Below are positions 30,253-45,428 of a stretch of DNA of 64,000 bases, piece by piece. The stretch spans positions 15,647,309 to 15,711,308 of the forward strand of contig OX463786.1 in assembly GCA_949825025.1 (NCBI GenBank). The letters run 5' to 3'. The DNA comes from Siphlonurus alternatus. Its lineage: Eukaryota; Arthropoda; Insecta; Ephemeroptera; Siphlonuridae. Below the pieces are notes generated by a model that made no database searches, was not told the origin of the DNA, and saw only the letters and a list, made by a program, of their open reading frames with translations. Positions within the stretch are counted from its first letter, which is position 1. Each line of letters starts with the position of its first letter. Position numbers and translations under genes: made by a program.

Positions 30253-31202
30253 CTTACTGTAGTTAAGGTGCAAAAGAATTGATTAGCCTAAACCTCACTA
30301 AAAAAATATATTCAAGATTTTTATTTGTAATTCTACTTCTGACTGGATAGCGCGATAATTAATTATGGGATGGTGAAAAAGCACTAAAGAAACTCCTTAT
30401 ACTTTAAAAAATATATTGTTTATTCCAATGTGTCTAATACAATATTATTAAAAAGCTATATTCAGAATTTTGGAACACGATACTTCGTCAAACGAAGTAG
30501 GAAACTTTTTGCATGCAATTTTTATTAGGAGATATTCGCAAAGAATTAAGGCTTCAGTATTATTTTTTTATTTGGAGTAATTCTATGTGAATGACGGACC
30601 CTAAATACGTAATTAGTCACCAACAATTTAAATTTGAATGCAATCTTAACTGTAATTTAAGTATATATGTCTTGTCACATATTGCTTATCAACATTTATG
30701 TGATTTTCTATATATATGATAGTTTCATATGAATCGTACTATATAGTTTTTGTTACTATAAAATTAAACTTATGTATAAAATTATATATATATATAATAT
30801 AAACTATTATAATATAGCTTAGTCTCTCCGAAAAACATGAAATTCATGTAATAATTTGAATACAAAAACATTTTGGCAGCATGCAGCACCATGTGTTTTA
30901 ATCTAATTAATTAAACATTATACATTATTAATACCAGATAATTAACATAAACAAAGTTGAATTATTTAATGAAGTTTTTGTTGGTGCACATATTTAAGAC
31001 CTTAAGTTAAGGTATGGTTTTTGCATTTAATATTTTGTTATGGATAATATATACGAGCAGGGGATTTTCTTTACGTGTTTCAAAATATTAGATATTAGAC
31101 TAAAGTATTTTCTTAGTTCCTTGTCGATACAAATTAAAACATTGATTCATTTTTTCAGTGTTATTGAAAATAACGTCTTTAACGTTTTAACAGTCAGAAT
31201 AT
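30253..31202. other. AT-rich flank on the 3' side of the LINE
   Basis: No gene recognised. The 86-codon frame that starts near 31040 runs into the LINE tail and has no domain. Confidence 0.5.
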
Positions 31203-31228
31203 ATTTATTTATTTATTTATTTATTTTT
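31203..31228 (-). repeat. LINE 3' tail (AAAT)n
   Basis: On the minus strand the 3' UTR ends GAAGTTCCAAAATAAA and runs into AAAT repeats, the short-repeat tail typical of CR1, I and jockey-type LINEs. It marks the point of target-primed reverse transcription. Confidence 0.7.
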
Positions 31229-31429
31229 ATTTTGGAACTTCTTTTTGGTTGTACAAGACAAACATATGTTCAAGTCAAAATTGGACAAAATACAACATAA
31301 AAACATCAAACTTAAACACATTTACATAAGTTATTTAACACTATCAAACACAATCACTGACAATAATAATAAAAACAAAATACAAGCCAAAGTCACCATT
31401 AATACTGATAAATTTTAGTTTATGTGGAA

Positions 31430-31430
31430 C

Positions 31431-31511
<81 letters not shown>

Positions 31512-31602
31512 CATACATACATATACACACATACATACATATACATATATATATATACATACATATACATATACATATACATACATACATATACACATAC
31601 AT

Positions 31603-31640
<38 letters not shown>
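31430..31640 (-). repeat. compound TA/ACAT/AC microsatellite in LINE 3' UTR
   Basis: Alternating (AT)n, (ACAT)n, (AC)n and ATACAC runs fill about 210 bp between the ORF2 stop and the 3' tail. Five overlapping open frames on both strands here are artefacts of the repeat (Tyr-Ile-His-Thr and Tyr-Val-Cys-Met strings). Confidence 0.95.
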
Positions 31641-31643
<3 letters not shown>

Positions 31644-31682
31644 TCAATACAATGTATATGTAAATTTATAATTTTGTTTATT

Positions 31683-34586
31683 TTATAATCCTGATAATAC
31701 TTTTTCAGACATTTTATTACTCTCAAAAGCTTTAATAGAGTAAAACTCTTTATTGATCAATACATTCTTTAATTTTGTGCGAAAAAGTTTACTGGTTTTT
31801 ATTTCTTTCAAACATGCTGGTAAAAATTCATAAAATTTTGCTGTTTGATACATTGCACAGTTTTTGAAAAATTGTGTGTTATGTCTTTCAGTAACTACAT
31901 TCGATTTGTTCCTAGTATTATAGTCATGATAGCCATCATTCTGAACATAAAAATTTGGATGATTTTTTTTGAATGAGGCACAATTTAAAATATAAATGCA
32001 AGGGACAGTTAACATTTTATTAGCCTTAAAATGTGAAACACACGACTGTCCTTTTGGTATTCTTAAAATCGTTCTAAGTGCTCTCTTTTGCAAAACAAAA
32101 CATCGATTCAATAGTTCCGATTTACATCCCCAATTTATTATGCCATATGCCAAATGTGGATAAACATACGCATAATATAAGGTTAGCAAGGTTTCATGAG
32201 ATACATGATTCCTGATTGTATATAACATAAAATTGGCCGAAATTATCTTCTTACAAATCGCATTTACATGTAAAGACCAATCCAAACTTTCATTAATGTG
32301 TAGACCAAGAAACTTAACAGACTCTGCTCTTTTAATTGTTTTTCCGGCTAATTGCAACAAATAACTATTCAAAGGGATTTGTCTAGGGGAATGAAATTGG
32401 ATGTATTCGGTTTTAGTTGAATTTAATATTAGCTTATTATTTGTACACCATGTATGTACCTCTTCAATAGTAAGTTTAATCTTACGAATTAATTCATCTT
32501 CGGCTTCTGCTGTGATTATAGCTGTAATATCATCAGCATACTTTACTAATACCGCATTCTTGACATGATCTGATAAGTCATTTGTTCCTGTATTAAACAA
32601 TGTGGCTGACATTTTTCCTCCTTGAGGAATTCCAAGTGTAATCGGTAATTTGTCTGATTTATATGTAATATTTTGGCCGTTAGAATTTGAATTTAATTCA
32701 ACATATTGTTGTCTGTTTGTTAGATATGAATCTAATAGATTACGACTCGAAACTCCTATTCCCATGTTATCAAATTTATTCAATAATACATCTTTATTTA
32801 GACTATCAAACGCTTTAGATAAATCAAAAAATATTGCAACGCAAAATAGTTTATTATCTATTGCCATATAAACGTGGCTTAAAAGATCAAATAGTGCTGT
32901 ATCAGTAGAACGGTCTTTCAAGAATCCATGTTGACAGGGAGCAATTAAATGATTTTCTGTTTGATAATCCGTAATTTGATCGTCTAATGTATTCTCAAAT
33001 AATTTGCCAAAAACAGATGTATTTGATATTGGTCTGTAATTACCAATAATGAAAGTTGGGCCTTTTTTATGAGTTGCATAAATCTTAGAATCCTTTAAAC
33101 AATCAGGAAATATACCATCTGATATTGAATGGTTAATTAAATTAGATAAAGGGACAGACAAAACAGAAGCACAATATTTTACAACAGTATATGGTATTTC
33201 GTCTGGGCCAGCTGCATACTTATTAGGAAGGGATTTCATTCGATTTAAAATATAAATCGGGTCTATCGAACTAAAATTTAATTTCGTTTTACTTTTATCA
33301 GAATCGACAATAATTAAAGTATTAGAATAATTAAAAGGAAATTTTTCTGTTATTATATTTTCAATTGTCTTGACAAAAAAATTATTAAATAAATTGCAAA
33401 TTAGTTTGGGGTCTGTAATCGTTACACTATTTATACATAATTCATAATTATTCTTATTATTAACATTTGTTTTCTTTGTTTTGCATTCTTTATTAATTAT
33501 ATTCCACGTAGCTTTAATTTTATTATTAGCTCCTTTTATTTCATGGTCATTCTCTTTAAATTTAGCGGTGGCCATATTTTGTTTATAAGATTTCATTTCT
33601 TTTTTATAAGTAGACTCTAAATTTGGGTCAGTAAATTTTACATCATAGTGTAAGCGTTTTAAAGAAATCCCTTGTTCGTAAAGATGGGGGTTATTGAGTA
33701 TCCAGGAAGGTTTATTTTTGTTACTTGAAATTTTTCTTTTAACAACAGGAAAAGCCTCGTTGAAATGATAAATAAAAATTTCAAGAAATTTTGACCATCT
33801 CTCATTTGAATTGAGATCAGGATTTAATAAATCATTCCATTCTTCACGAATTAATAGGAGCAGAAAATTATCTAAATTGCATTTGTCAAATATTCGTTTA
33901 TAATAAAATTGTTTTTCTTGTATTTTATCAATGTTTTTTGAGTTATTTAATGTTATTGTGACTATAGTATAGTTATGGTCCGACAAAGTTGTTTTTTCAG
34001 TTTTATAATTAGTATTAATAGCAGATGTACTTTTAATAATATGATCAATTAAAGTAGCCGTTTTCATTGTTTCTCTAGTAGCGGAACTATTAACAATTTC
34101 CAACTTGTATGAGTCCAGTATATCTTTATATAAAATTACATTTGCATCATCAATAAATAAATTAAGATTTACGTCACCCGCAATAATAAAAAAATCATCA
34201 TTATTTTTACAGTATTTAATTAATTTTTTGCATAACATTTCAAACTCTCTGAAGAATGGTTTTATATTATTTTCTGTGTTGTCAAAATTCTGAATTTTTT
34301 TCATCACTCTAGATATATTAGGTGGGCGATATATAGAAGCAAAATAAATGTTTGTTGTCTTGTTAATTACTAATTTCGCTATGCAGCATTCAAAAACTGA
34401 TTCAATGGATTTTATTTTAATATCATTTATATTTGAACCTTTACGAGATAGAATTACTACTCCCCCACATTTTTGAATATCTCTACAGTAATATGAAACT
34501 ATCATAAAATTTTTAAAATTTATTGTTATAATTTCAGATTCATTCAGCCCATGTTCACATAATATAATTATATCACAATCAACCAT
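31683..34586 (-). CDS. LINE ORF2: APE endonuclease-reverse transcriptase
   Basis: This enzyme nicks target DNA and reverse-transcribes the element RNA at the nick. Numbering from the first Met, the endonuclease spans about 1-212, with E11 (CEHGL), YRPPN at 86-90, GDVN with D138, IDH with D181 and SDH with D203/H204. Reverse transcriptase spans about 455-765: GNYRPIS at 515-521, QHGF at 552-555, FFDLSKAFD (D588, D594), GIPQGG at 652-657, YADD (D685, D686) and FLGLHI. A thumb-like tail follows with [12 protein letters not shown] and YNTRNK. No RNase H. The first in-frame Met (34586) cannot be the true start of the domain. The frame is open upstream to 34724 and codes NIKILQLNLPGL, the first strand of the endonuclease. 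How translation enters it is unclear (see junction). Motif B (GGKMSATLF) departs from the usual GSVLGPLLF. Confidence 0.93.
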
Positions 34587-34727
34587 TTCAAGAAAATACT
34601 CAAATTTTGGTAATTTATTTTTTAGGCCTGGTAAGTTAAGCTGAAGAATTTTAATATTACATGGGGCTGAGTGAACCTGAACATTAAGTTTTTTTTTTGT
34701 TGGGCAATTTGGTGGAGATACTGTTTA
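34587..34727 (-). other. ORF1/ORF2 junction with A10 run and frame overlap
   Basis: ORF1 reads LPNKKKT then TAA at 34684-34686, directly after ten A residues (34689-34698). ORF2's frame is open from 34724 and is +1 relative to ORF1, so the two overlap by about 40 nt. The ATG formed by the TAATG at the ORF1 stop is in the third frame and closes after about 20 codons. Removing one A would join ORF1 and ORF2 into a single frame. Confidence 0.85.
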
Positions 34728-37020
34728 GTGTACTGGCACGGAGCCGTGATCTCACAGGGGAAGATTGTGTATCTTCCTGAGAATTTTTAATGGGGGATTT
34801 CAATTGAGATGCCAGATTAAAATTATCAACATTTGAACTCAAAACATTATCATTAATAGTATCATTTTTACTAATAATGGATGGTGAGACAACAGATGAA
34901 ATTTCATTAATTGATTTTTCTGAATTAATTGCACTTTTCTTAGCAGCAGTTTCATCATTTTTTAATAGATCATTTGTGAATTGGAATTTATTATCTAAAA
35001 TCGTTAGTAAAAAAGCTTTGAGTCTTGGATGTAATGAGTTCATATCTATAATATCTTGATTCAACTCAAGAGAACATACAGGATCTGGTAAGGGTGGTCC
35101 TGATTCAGGCAAACTATTGTTTACCAAAACAAGACTTGACTCCTCACTTGGGGCAATACCGTCGTTCGCCGGAGCGAGGCCTGACTCCTCGCCCGGGGTG
35201 GTACCGTCGTTCACCGAAACGAGGCCTGACTCCTCGCCCGGGGTGGTACCGTCGTTCACCGAAGCGAGGCCTGACTCCTCGCCCGGGGTGGTACCGTCGT
35301 TCACCGGAGCAAGGCCTGACTCCTCGCCCGGGGTGGTACCGTCGTTCACCGAAGCGAGGCCTGACTCCTCGCCCGGGGTGGTACCGTCGTTCACCGAAGC
35401 GAGGCCTGACTCCTCGCCCGGGGTGGTACCGTCGTTCACCGAAGCGAGGCCTGACTCCTCGCCCGGGGTGGTACCGTCGTTCACCGAAGCGAGGCCTGAC
35501 TCCTCGCCCGGGGTGGTACCGTCGTTCACCTGAGCGAGGCCTGACTTCTCGCCCCGGGTATTAGACATCTGCTCCTTCGTGGCTGGCACTGGCAGTCCCT
35601 CCACCCTCACTATGTCAGGCGTGACAATTGAGGGGCGGGTACTCTCTCGCAAGGTAGAGGTCTGGCATTGCCCGGAACTTACAAGGACCGCCAGGTTATT
35701 AGAAGGAGGGGCCCTAGCGGTAATGACGTTTGCTAGAGTAGATTGGGCTGATTCCTCAAAGAGTTCTTTAACAGCTGTTTCATCATCATTACTTGCAACT
35801 TTCTTTGCTAATGTCTTCCATCCATAATAAGCAACAATTTCAATGTCAAGATCTTTGAACACTGAAATAATGTCTTGTTTTATAGTAGACCAGTTGAAAC
35901 CGTCTCTGCCACATGCTAAACGAGGAATTGCGAGTTTTTTTATACTTAAAATCTCACAGATATTTCTTAAATTTTTTAATGCAAGTAGTATATTTGAGTG
36001 GTCAGGATAGCTGTTATGGACAGATTTAGTAACTAAGTAGAAAATAAAACTGTCATCTGAAGGTAAAACAGCTACTTCACCAGTATTTTTGAGTTGACTC
36101 TTTAAAAAAGGGGTTTGTCCATGTTTTTTTTTAAATTGAGTTGCAACTCCACGTCCTTGTTTAAATGTTTTATCAACGCAGTGGGCGTAGGATGTGCCTG
36201 GTGGTGCGTCAAACAAATTTCCTTTCTTTTCAATGAAACGGAAATTTTGATGTTTTCTTTTTATATTATTGTTGTTGGTATTTTTCTGATGTAAAGTCGG
36301 AAAAGACTCATTATTAATATGTTGTAGTACTGAAAATGAGTTTGATGTTGGTACTGTCGCACCCCACGGATTATAAGGAGGTCTTGGGGGGCGCAATTGG
36401 GCACCCTGGCTTTGGCGCGGCAGCTGGGTAGGGTGCGGTCGCTGAGCACTTGGTTGGTGTTGGAGCGGGCGACGAGGTTGATACTGACTTACAACGTGCT
36501 GCCGGCGTGTCTGCTGCTGGCGTGATTGCTCAGATTGTTGCTGCTGCTGCTGGCGTGATTGCTGCTGCTGCTGTGGCACTCTAGTGAACGACGTCGGCTG
36601 AGGTGGGCGTTGTTTTGTGTAACCAGCCGTCCTCCAAGGTCGCGAGAATTGAACTGGTGACCTGTCATAATCAGCTGTTTGTATATGACATTGATGATTT
36701 GAATTTCCCTCATTATTAAAGTTATTTGCAGAAGAAATTCCATTTCTTTCATTTAACATTAATTTAATAGTGCATTTAATTTCTTCTCTAAAGTCAGTAA
36801 ATAAGTCCTTAATATTATGTTGAATTAATTTGTACATTGGATGTACAGTCAGATCATTTGATAGGCTTTCATTGGACATATGTATATCAGAATTATTTTT
36901 ATCATAATTAATAAATTGTGAGTTAAAAACCTCCGGTGTAGTTCTAGCAGGTGGCGGCCAGTGTGGTACGAGCGGAGAGCAGAACTGAGGTGTAGCACGC
37001 ATGGAGCGTAGGTCCGTCAT
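34684..37020 (-). CDS. LINE ORF1 with TARG1-like macro domain
   Basis: Predicted ribonucleoprotein component of the retrotransposon, 778 residues. Order: N-terminal segment with a helical stretch at about 62-91; poly-Q at 150-172; Arg/Pro/Gln-rich basic region at 173-220, a plausible nucleic-acid binder; macro domain at about 259-400; low-complexity linker; ten 15-residue repeats (SGLASVNDGTTPGEE type) at 486-635; polar tail with a basic end. The macro domain shows GNLFDAP, AHCVDK, GRGVATQFKKKHG, GEVAVL, FYLVTK (K332) and ACGRDGFNW (D373). These match the motifs of human TARG1/OARD1, whose Lys84 and Asp125 are also 41 residues apart. TARG1 removes ADP-ribose from acidic side chains, and the related DarG acts on DNA. 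I see no CCHC knuckle, RRM or esterase. The start is the first ATG after an AT-rich leader, and the frame is intact. Antagonism of host ADP-ribosylation is inference. Confidence 0.9.
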   Translation of the reverse strand: MTDLRSMRATPQFCSPLVPHWPPPARTTPEVFNSQFINYDKNNSDIHMSNESLSNDLTVHPMYKLIQHNIKDLFTDFREEIKCTIKLMLNERNGISSANNFNNEGNSNHQCHIQTADYDRSPVQFSRPWRTAGYTKQRPPQPTSFTRVPQQQQQSRQQQQQQSEQSRQQQTRRQHVVSQYQPRRPLQHQPSAQRPHPTQLPRQSQGAQLRPPRPPYNPWGATVPTSNSFSVLQHINNESFPTLHQKNTNNNNIKRKHQNFRFIEKKGNLFDAPPGTSYAHCVDKTFKQGRGVATQFKKKHGQTPFLKSQLKNTGEVAVLPSDDSFIFYLVTKSVHNSYPDHSNILLALKNLRNICEILSIKKLAIPRLACGRDGFNWSTIKQDIISVFKDLDIEIVAYYGWKTLAKKVASNDDETAVKELFEESAQSTLANVITARAPPSNNLAVLVSSGQCQTSTLRESTRPSIVTPDIVRVEGLPVPATKEQMSNTRGEKSGLAQVNDGTTPGEESGLASVNDGTTPGEESGLASVNDGTTPGEESGLASVNDGTTPGEESGLASVNDGTTPGEESGLAPVNDGTTPGEESGLASVNDGTTPGEESGLVSVNDGTTPGEESGLAPANDGIAPSEESSLVLVNNSLPESGPPLPDPVCSLELNQDIIDMNSLHPRLKAFLLTILDNKFQFTNDLLKNDETAAKKSAINSEKSINEISSVVSPSIISKNDTINDNVLSSNVDNFNLASQLKSPIKNSQEDTQSSPVRSRLRASTLNSISTKLPNKKKT
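35116..35565 (-). repeat. 45-bp coding minisatellite in ORF1
   Basis: Ten head-to-tail 45-bp units, eight close to identical and one degenerate unit at each edge, coding GTTPGEESGLASVND. It is GC-rich (GCCCGGGGTGGTACCGTC on the plus strand) inside an otherwise AT-rich element. The plus strand is also open in two frames across the array, purely as a consequence of the repeat. Confidence 0.95.
35821..36246 (-). other. macro domain (TARG1/DarG type) within ORF1
   Basis: Residues 259-400 of ORF1. Length (about 140 aa) is close to that of TARG1. The substrate-loop glycines (GRGVA) and the lysine-aspartate pair are kept, so hydrolase activity is expected rather than simple ADP-ribose binding. Family assignment is by motif recognition, without a database search. 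Confidence 0.88.
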
Positions 37021-37260
37021 GATGTTGTTCTCAAGAGAATATTTATCACACCTTTATATTTAAAGTTCAATGCACAGGACACTTAGTAGTAATGTATCAC
37101 TTAATAGAAAAAAACTTCAACTTTCCGATGAACAGACTTTCTTTTTAATTAAATGATAGACAAAAAGGTTAATCTTTAAAAATTACGGAGCAGTGAAAAT
37201 ATTGTAGTTAAGCTCTCAGGTGCTGCCACCTACCTCCACAATATAGTTAAGGTATCGAGT
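37021..37260 (-). promoter_or_regulatory. LINE 5' leader, probable internal promoter region
   Basis: About 240 bp of AT-rich sequence precede the ORF1 ATG. Its far end holds GGTGGCAGCACCTGAGAGC on the minus strand. LINEs of this type normally carry an internal promoter here, but no defined core element can be read with confidence. Confidence 0.4.
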
Positions 37261-44190: not shown

Positions 44191-45428
44191 TACTCAAAAT
44201 CCGGCTTTTTTTTGTTTGTTATTGAATTTTCAAAATTCCTTCATATTCAAACTCCTAGGGTCCAATTACATGACGTCAGGTGTTTTCAGCATGATCGAGC
44301 TAAAATTAGAAGTTTTGGTTTTGTCAAGCTTTGCCATTTTCACTGTTTCGAAGTTTAAGGCCTCAAAATCCGGCTTTTTTGTTTGTGATTGAATCTTCAA
44401 AATTCCTTCATATTCAAACTCCTAGGGTCCAATTACATGACGTCAGGTGTTTTCAGCATGATCGAGCTAAAATTAGAAGTTTTGGTTTCGTCAAGTTTTG
44501 ACGTTTTCACTGTTTTGAAGTTTAAGGCCTTAAAATCCAGCTTTTATGTTTTTGATTGAATCTTCAAAATTCCTTGGTATTCAAACTCCTAGGGTCCAAT
44601 TACATGGTTTCAGGTGTTTTAAGTATGATCGAGCTAAAATTAAAAGTTTTGGTTTTGTCAAGTTTTGCCGTTTTCACTGTTTTGAAGTTTAAGGCCTCAA
44701 AATCCGGCTTTTTTGTTTGTGATTGAATCTTCAAAATTCCTTCATATTCAAACTCCTAGGGTCCAATTACATGGCGTCAGGTGTTTTCAGCATGATCGAG
44801 CTAAAATTAAAAGTTTTGGTTTTGTCAAGTTTTGCCGTTTTCACTGTTTTGAAGTTTAAGGCCTCAATATCCGGCTTTTTTGTTTGTTATTAAATCTTCA
44901 AAATTCCTTCATATTTGAACTCCTAGGGTCCAATTACATGGTTTCAGGTGTTTTCAGTATGATCGAGCTAGAATTAAAAGTTTTGGTTTTGTGAAGTTTT
45001 GGCGTTTTCACTGTTTTGAAGTTTAAGGCCTCAAAATCCGGCTTTTTTGTTTGTTATTGAATATTCAAAATTGCTTCATATTCAAACTCCTAGGGTCCAA
45101 TTACATGACGTCAGGTGTTTTCAGCATGATCGAGCTAAAATTAGAAGTTTTGGTTTTGTCAAATTTTCCCGTTTTCACTGTTTTGAAGTTTAAGGCCTCA
45201 AAATCCGGCTTTTTTGTTTGTGATTGAATCCTCAAAATTCCTTCATATTCAAACTCCTAGGGTCCAATTACATGACGTCAGGTGTTTTCAGCATGATCGA
45301 GCTAAAATTTAAAATTTTGGTTTTGTTAAGTTTTGCCGTTTTCACTGTTTTGAAGTTTAAGGCCTCAAAATCCGGCTTTTTTGTTTGTAATTGAATCTTC
45401 AAAATTTCTTCATATTTGAACTCCTATT
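44191..45428. repeat. 167-bp satellite array, seven full units and a partial
   Basis: Landmark CCGGC/CCAGC starts at 44201, 44370, 44537, 44704, 44871, 45038, 45205 and 45372, giving a period of 167 bp (169 for the first). Each unit contains AAACTCCTAGGGTCCAATTA, then CATGACGTCAGGTGTTTT or a variant, then CATGATCGAGCTAAAATTA. Units differ by scattered substitutions. The array ends abruptly at CTCCTATTATGTC. Not coding. Confidence 0.95.

Follow-up and report, generated by a model that had tools for sequence, protein, structure and literature searches.

We describe a long interspersed nuclear element (LINE) of the mayfly Siphlonurus alternatus whose first open reading frame (ORF1) carries a macro domain of the TARG1/OARD1 type. 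On our best reading, it represents a new type of LINE ORF1, distinguished by a host-type domain that is a putative ADP-ribosyl hydrolase. The element lies on the minus strand of a 64,000-nucleotide stretch of contig OX463786.1 (positions 15,647,309 to 15,711,308), which is called the window here and whose own numbering is used. The features on which the identification is based are the following:

34684..37020, minus strand: ORF1, 778 amino acids (aa), with the TARG1-type macro domain (translation and sequence matches)
35821..36246, minus strand: TARG1/OARD1-type macro domain, ORF1 residues 259-400 (sequence match and predicted fold)
36025..36027, minus strand: codon of K332, aligned with the catalytic K84 of TARG1 (invariant in 27/27 transposon rows)
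35902..35904, minus strand: codon of D373, aligned with the catalytic D125 of TARG1 (invariant in 27/27 transposon rows)

A preliminary description of this DNA, made from its letters alone, had proposed a TARG1-like macro domain on the basis of six short motifs and the spacing of a Lys-Asp pair. All six motifs are present in the order given, within residues 259-400 of the 778-aa ORF1 (window 35821-36246, minus strand), and K332 and D373 are indeed 41 residues apart. The nearest solved relative of residues 257-398, which hold the domain, is human TARG1/OARD1 (4j5r; phmmer E 2.8e-25), and the top five distinct PDB sequences are all TARG1. The predicted fold superimposes on TARG1 4j5r_A with 0.7 Å; model residues 6-146 align with chain residues 12-152 (141 aligned), placing K332 on K84 and D373 on D125. 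The Pfam Macro match of the window ORF1 is weak (21.2 bits versus a cut-off of 22), and Macro is matched at E <= 0.01 in 15 of 22 related ORF1s. Profile and structure comparison thus both led to TARG1, as the preliminary description had anticipated, and the assignment to the TARG1 type is supported by sequence, predicted fold and catalytic dyad. A DarG-like identity was ruled out by TARG1 being the best match in both sequence and structure. The macro domain of the DarG antitoxin shows 23-25% identity to the LINE domain, and in DarTG systems DarT adjoins it, whereas here the neighbor is the ORF2 frame of the LINE and not DarT.

Conservation was assessed in 27 transposon rows (the window, L021-L040, P0001, and L120-L124), which include near-duplicates. 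The equivalents of K84, D125, H32, P118, and W129 are unchanged in all 27. In contrast to human and insect TARG1/OARD1 (C6orf130), the domain here resides within a transposon ORF1, and the D20 position and the G121-L124 loop are variable. Specifically, the position of Asp20, which we take to be the adenine-binding residue of TARG1, is D in 15, N in 10 (including the window), and C in 2 rows, and it also varies among host rows; at the G121 position, 13 rows have A and 4 have S, and at G123, 2 rows have K.

The macro domain is under purifying selection. Across copies, a comparison already envisaged in the preliminary description, its dN/dS ratio (nonsynonymous to synonymous substitution rate) was 0.043-0.179 (Nei-Gojobori) in the eight pairs, out of 12, whose dS was usable; in these eight pairs, the remainder of ORF1 gave 0.44-0.64 and ORF2 gave 0.07-0.31. 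The domain dS exceeded 2 in two of these pairs, and the broken ORF2s of L021 and L037 were compared by their first open piece. The stated range leaves out one saturated pair as well as three near-identical pairs, whose dS does not exceed about 0.02 and whose dN/dS of 0.25-0.28 reflects only a handful of changes. Note that the contrast between regions carries more weight than the dN/dS values themselves, because the alignment of the disordered part is unsafe and dS differs between the regions of a pair.

ORF1 type and comparison with other LINEs

A model of the whole ORF1 protein (ORF1p), predicted from 22 ORF1 rows with host sequences excluded, had a mean predicted local distance difference test (pLDDT) value of 52 and a predicted template modeling score (pTM) of 0.36, with 524 of 778 residues below 50. 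The structured parts of the model are the macro domain (block pLDDT 87-97), a helix at residues 61-92, which may possibly serve oligomerization, and helices at residues 665-706. The macro domain is the sole globular domain of ORF1 that is predicted with confidence. Across the 22 ORF1s, no Pfam family other than Macro was matched at E <= 0.01, and neither an RNA recognition motif (RRM) with CCHC domains nor an L1-type coiled coil-RRM-C-terminal domain arrangement, a PHD, or an esterase was found by Pfam or as a confident fold; the protein is therefore not an ORF1 of the RRM/CCHC, L1, PHD, or esterase type. A classical ORF1 with an overlooked RRM was ruled out by the same model and Pfam scan. 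The view of the preliminary description that this is an unusual ORF1 type is borne out by these 22 sequences. The only invariant column outside the macro domain is N227, which is part of an N-x-F-x-x-L motif (window 36325-36342, residues 227-232) about 30 residues N-terminal of the domain; F and L of the motif are nearly invariant, and its surroundings are poorly conserved.

As regards earlier work, no report of a macro domain in a non-LTR retrotransposon or LINE ORF1 was found in the open-licence PMC literature, of which part of the matches were covered. The ORF1 types I-V described for the Jockey superfamily (PMC4120745) occupy the same place as the first ORF of a two-ORF LINE, and they provide precedents both for an enzyme in ORF1 (esterase, type IV) and for the exchange of ORF1s between lineages. 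The RRM, CCHC, PHD, esterase, and L1-type domains reported there were all absent from the macro-LINE ORF1s, and the main text of that paper contains no occurrence of macro domain, macrodomain, or ADP-ribose. A viral helicase has been described in ORF1 of Jockey LINEs (PMC5563155), likewise insect LINEs with a foreign enzyme whose motifs are intact, and it was suggested to benefit the transposon; this enzyme, however, is an RNA helicase of viral descent and not a host-type ADP-ribose hydrolase. Since an esterase and a viral helicase are already known from LINE ORF1s, an enzyme-bearing ORF1 as such is not new.

Layout, families, and origin

The element is identified as a LINE by an endonuclease-reverse transcriptase ORF2 following ORF1, by copies dispersed on many contigs, and by its A-rich 3' tail. 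The further features of the window copy are as follows:

31202..37234, minus strand: complete copy of the LINE (about 6.03 kb; ends read by eye), which starts 5' with GGTAGGTGGCAGC and finishes 3' in the A-rich (AAAT)n tail
37021..37234, minus strand: 5' untranslated region, kept between copies as far as the 5' junction
36745..36840, minus strand: N-terminal long helix, ORF1 residues 61-92 (predicted model, block pLDDT 75-82)
35157..35559, minus strand: 45-bp tandem repeat, nine copies, in frame (15-aa unit), C-terminal to the macro domain in ORF1 (repeat search)
34903..35028, minus strand: predicted helices near the C-terminus, residues 665-706 of ORF1 (the block 661-700 has pLDDT 79-84)
34684..34724, minus strand: end of ORF1 (A-run, LPNKKKT, stop), overlapping the ORF2 frame with a one-base shift (frame comparison)
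31683..34724, minus strand: ORF2 open frame, 1013 codons, encoding an endonuclease with a QLN motif at residue 28 as well as a reverse transcriptase with YADD (RVT_1 E 5.9e-31)
31202..31682, minus strand: 3' untranslated region, containing an (AT)n/(GT)n microsatellite (31431-31640) and the A-rich tail (repeat search, copy comparison)

The 5' start is common to the window and six other readable copies, one of which starts 3 bases later; an eighth copy, L005, is N-masked at this point. For the 3' end, the window was set against seven other copies, and all eight contain the microsatellite, in varying length. No clear target-site duplication was found in the seven copies with both flanks readable, where short ones may hide in the repetitive tail. 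By Pfam, the ORF2 endonuclease is weak in the window copy (E 0.15), and PF03372 or PF14529 is present in many of the 120 relatives listed. An endonuclease and a reverse transcriptase with no Pfam match to RNase H would be compatible with the Jockey superfamily (CR1, L2, Jockey, and others). Rfam yielded nothing at gathering scores. In three genomic copies, the ORF1 frame has 774 instead of 789 codons, corresponding to one 15-aa unit fewer, and L029-L031 carry another 15-aa repeat near the equivalent place of ORF1. Outside the LINE, the window contains a tandem array of a 167-bp unit (44193-45426, 7.4 copies).

In the searched genome (455.7 Mb, 102 contigs), at least 58 ORF1 matches with 99-100% identity were found, including the window copy; 52 of them have an uninterrupted 789-codon frame and one has a stop. 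The ORF2 matches were open in all 45 scored, the window included, which is a lower bound on copy number. Three queries, namely the window domain, a host OARD1, and a diverged domain, gave at least 150 matches each, those of the window domain reaching down to 38% identity and those of the other two including further families. No internal stop was present in 147 of 150 scored domain matches (window copy and one host exon included). The LINE group is diverse and apparently recently active, and it may still be active. The preliminary description had named a one-off insertion as the finding that would speak against it; instead, the domain occurs across many related LINE families.

ORF1 frames of macro-bearing elements range from 476 to 828 codons. 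Among 21 elements (window, L021-L040), the ORF2 frame overlaps the end of ORF1 in 19; in L034 and L040 it lies further downstream, and in L021 and L037 ORF2 is broken. The overlap (window 34684-34724, L021-L039) measures 37-109 nucleotides, with an offset of one base in 13 of the 19 and of two bases in the other 6. An ATG is absent before the endonuclease QLN motif in 15 of the 19 adjoining ORF2 frames, suggesting that ORF2 translation may start by frameshifting or non-AUG reinitiation, possibly yielding an ORF1-ORF2 fusion protein. The DNA downstream of L120 is a LINE ORF2, collinear with an ORF2 frame of 1035 codons; it shows 36-42% identity to 16 of 17 compared macro-LINE ORF2s and 30% to that of L039, the best listed database ORF2 reaching 31%. 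L121, too, is followed by an ORF2 match, at a distance of 2.5 kb. Outside the genome, P0001 (710 aa; 47% identity over the whole ORF1, 77% in the domain) was the only ORF1 relative among 7986 scored candidates, which were those sharing most words, and a scan of genome contigs and one of viral contigs with the window domain gave no further one. In the genome, 46 ORF2 frames of at least 990 codons were present among at least 124 listed, and 26 of them have a listed macro match 2.0-2.9 kb upstream, as judged by eye. Most of the remaining 20, among them one at the end of its contig (C62), resemble the macro-bearing families in length and score, so that 5' truncation or macro matches beyond those listed may account for them; the frames of four families, at C1:53086499 with C2:4053809, at C4:29025622, at C11:902367, and at C6:837470, are not accounted for in this way and may belong to lineages that lack the domain.

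Two domain trees bear on the origin of the domain. In the first, 22 LINE domains together with the host OARD1 were split from human OARD1 and 41 viral domains (60 viral rows, less 9 rows and 10 duplicates) with support of 98/96; in the second, which contained more host OARD1-like genes and transposon rows and nine viral rows, the same split received 95/97. Human OARD1 is the only other animal OARD1 in these trees and thus a thin outgroup, and Kadipiro virus VP8 is in neither. On C5, the genome has an exon of OARD1 that matches TARG1 best among PDB sequences (E 1.5e-41). Three further OARD1-like frames, L117, L118 (two tandem domains), and L119, are presumed to belong to the host because they are short or hold two domains. 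In L118 (C3:10610700-10611700), both catalytic residues are replaced in domain 1 (K to R, D to N) and retained in domain 2. As the transposon domains group with host OARD1s of their own genome, apart from human and viral sequences, the donor was of host type, in agreement with the preliminary description; a viral origin is ruled out by the trees for the viral rows included.

A single capture and several captures are both compatible with the trees, a transposon clade being neither shown nor rejected: the transposon rows formed a single clade with support of 68/0 in the first tree, and in the second the approximately unbiased (AU) test gave p-AU values of 0.158 for all 27 transposon rows and 0.379 for the 23 LINE rows. 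One lineage is favored by the ORF2s, since those of 17 macro LINEs (the elements with an ORF2 frame of more than 900 codons) form one clade against 63 database ORF2s in a quick tree (Shimodaira-Hasegawa-like approximate likelihood ratio 99; the ORF1s of those 63 are not known). The ORF2 trees of these 17 elements conflict with the macro-domain tree for L026-L028, L032, L033, L035, L036, the window, and L025. L028 and L032/L033 are placed differently by the two, and the AU test, applied to groups chosen after inspection of the trees, rejects the swapped arrangements (p = 0.0016, 0.005, 4e-6, and 2e-100). Macro-LINE families have thus swapped ORF1 and ORF2 modules with one another.

OARD1-like macro domains also occur in phages (14 INPHARED records, with H1-H10 among the phage records, and 60 IMG/VR loci, L057-L116); 7 of the 60 IMG/VR rows lack the Lys/Asp pair or that region. 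The place of L057, whose contig measures about 79 kb, is unsure (animal side in the first tree, 100/94; with the viral rows in the second, 85/19). The macro domains of alphaviruses and coronaviruses are likewise borne by parasites, plausibly against host ADP-ribosylation, but share only 13-16% identity with the LINE domain in structural alignments, whereas the latter groups with animal OARD1. Among arthropod-associated viruses with domains of this fold, Kadipiro virus VP8 ranks first with 35% identity, and the TARG1-type fold may have been useful to arthropod parasites more than once.

Possible role on the element ribonucleoprotein

We consider it rather likely that these LINEs carry an active TARG1-type hydrolase in ORF1p that removes host-placed ADP-ribose from the element. 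The ORF1 protein of LINEs normally coats the element RNA, and TARG1 removes ADP-ribose from Glu and Asp. In the element described here, a hydrolase of host-type origin would take the place of the usual nucleic-acid-binding ORF1 core. With its long helix, an arginine/glutamine-rich disordered stretch, the macro domain, and a basic tail, ORF1p is probably a ribonucleoprotein (RNP) protein that would bring the hydrolase onto the element RNA, where it could strip ADP-ribose put there by host transferases. We infer the enzymatic activity, its substrate, the RNP association, current activity of the element, and a benefit to the element. The substrate we favor is base-linked ADP-ribose, on uracil or thymine of single-stranded RNA or cDNA, which should obstruct reverse transcription; the next candidate would be Glu/Asp-linked ADP-ribose on ORF1p or ORF2p or at the nicked target. 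Uracil in single-stranded RNA was ADP-ribosylated in vitro by the catalytic domain of human PARP10 and the modification removed by human TARG1, and a synthetic probe of ADP-ribosylated uracil (U-ADPr) was hydrolyzed by Drosophila Targ1 and Targ3, but not Targ2 (PMC13036486). Thymidine ADP-ribosylation is reversed by TARG1, the rescue being abolished by K84A (PMC8501950), and PARP1-catalyzed DNA ADP-ribosylation at the single-stranded DNA of unligated Okazaki fragments is removed by TARG1 (PMC11102865).

Writers of the mark are likely to be host genes with PARP domains, two of them of the PARP12 mono-transferase type as judged by similarity. The genome contains 22 PARP-domain matches over the Pfam cut-off, some probably being exons of one gene, and the two frames examined (L052 and L056) are nearest to human PARP12 (E 7e-22 and 2e-15). 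Six of the 22 matches are clustered at C8:24922550-24972709. In Drosophila lacking PARP-1, five of eight significantly changed mobile elements went up and three down, which the authors view mainly as derepression, possibly indirect (PMC7712786). The preliminary description had stated that PARP-family proteins affect LINE-1 retrotransposition; an effect is supported, and its direction is mixed, as PARP1/2 help (PMC8535693), whereas SIRT6 represses L1 via mono-ADP-ribosylation of KAP1 (PMC4695847). Several observations count against a LINE-borne hydrolase acting for the benefit of the element. PARP1/2 assist human L1 integration (PMC8535693), and removal of ADP-ribose therefore need not benefit a LINE. 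Chikungunya virus mutants devoid of hydrolase activity replicate in mosquito cells as usual, and selection on the viral macro domain has been proposed to act through ADP-ribose binding and not through catalysis (PMC12632316). Finally, the substitutions at D20, G121, and G123 in the transposon rows may have shifted affinity or substrate.

Other roles are conceivable. It is possible, though improbable, that the hydrolase acts at target-primed reverse transcription, clearing PARP1/2-type ADP-ribose at the nicked target or at flaps and thereby freeing second-strand synthesis; an ORF1-ORF2 frameshift fusion, if made, would place it beside the nick. A PARP1/PARP2 complex at single-strand breaks and recognition of the L1 integration gap by PARP2 (PMC8535693) are in line with such a role, as is the clearance by TARG1 of PARP1-made DNA ADP-ribose at unligated Okazaki fragments (PMC11102865), but L1 retrotransposition falls on loss of PARP1 or PARP2, so that removal may hurt (PMC8535693). 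A fused product would be possible given the 15 of 19 adjoining ORF2 frames with no ATG before the QLN motif. However, LINEs usually make far more ORF1 than ORF2 protein, as would suit a hydrolase acting across the whole RNP better than one confined to the nick.

We give little credence to a pure reader, which would bind ADP-ribose or poly(ADP-ribose) and take the RNP to PARP-marked chromatin or condensates, hydrolysis being incidental. Macro domains can be readers, and the chikungunya proposal concerns binding (PMC12632316); here, however, the Lys and Asp of the dyad are constant in 27 transposon rows while residues of the binding loop vary, and domain 1 of L118 illustrates that both can be lost in this genome. 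The same invariance, extending to the H32, P118, and W129 equivalents, makes it very improbable that the domain is solely a nucleic-acid-binding or structural core that replaced an RRM and kept its catalytic residues for folding, even if no other globular part of the ORF1 model is folded with confidence and an RNA-binding core is found in other LINE ORF1s (PMC4120745). More generally, a mere binding or scaffold domain hardly explains the invariant K84 and D125 equivalents. A host OARD1 fragment caught in one copy, or an annotation artefact, is next to inconceivable in view of the 147 of 150 stop-free domain matches down to 38% identity, the 19 of 21 elements with overlapping ORF2 frames, and purifying selection on the domain; a one-off insertion is refuted by families with long open frames.

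Returning to the hydrolase that would act on the element RNP, these LINEs would represent an ORF1 type in which a predicted eraser of a chemical modification, not an RNA-binding fold, forms the conserved core, and they suggest that hosts may mark retrotransposons by ADP-ribosylation. The work on uracil ADP-ribosylation and its removal by TARG1 was done in vitro, and its authors call for confirmation in cells (PMC13036486, 2026); a LINE lineage that keeps the TARG1 active site provides a natural test of whether this RNA chemistry is relevant in vivo, and the means to examine it directly, enzymes, probes, and assays alike, are already available. More tentatively, and with the odds rather against it, host mono-ADP-ribosyltransferases may mark the bases of retrotransposon RNA or cDNA, and LINEs may erase the mark with a host-type TARG1 in an arms race. 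If this is true, base ADP-ribosylation would be a transposon defence of animals, parallel to that of bacterial DarT against phage.

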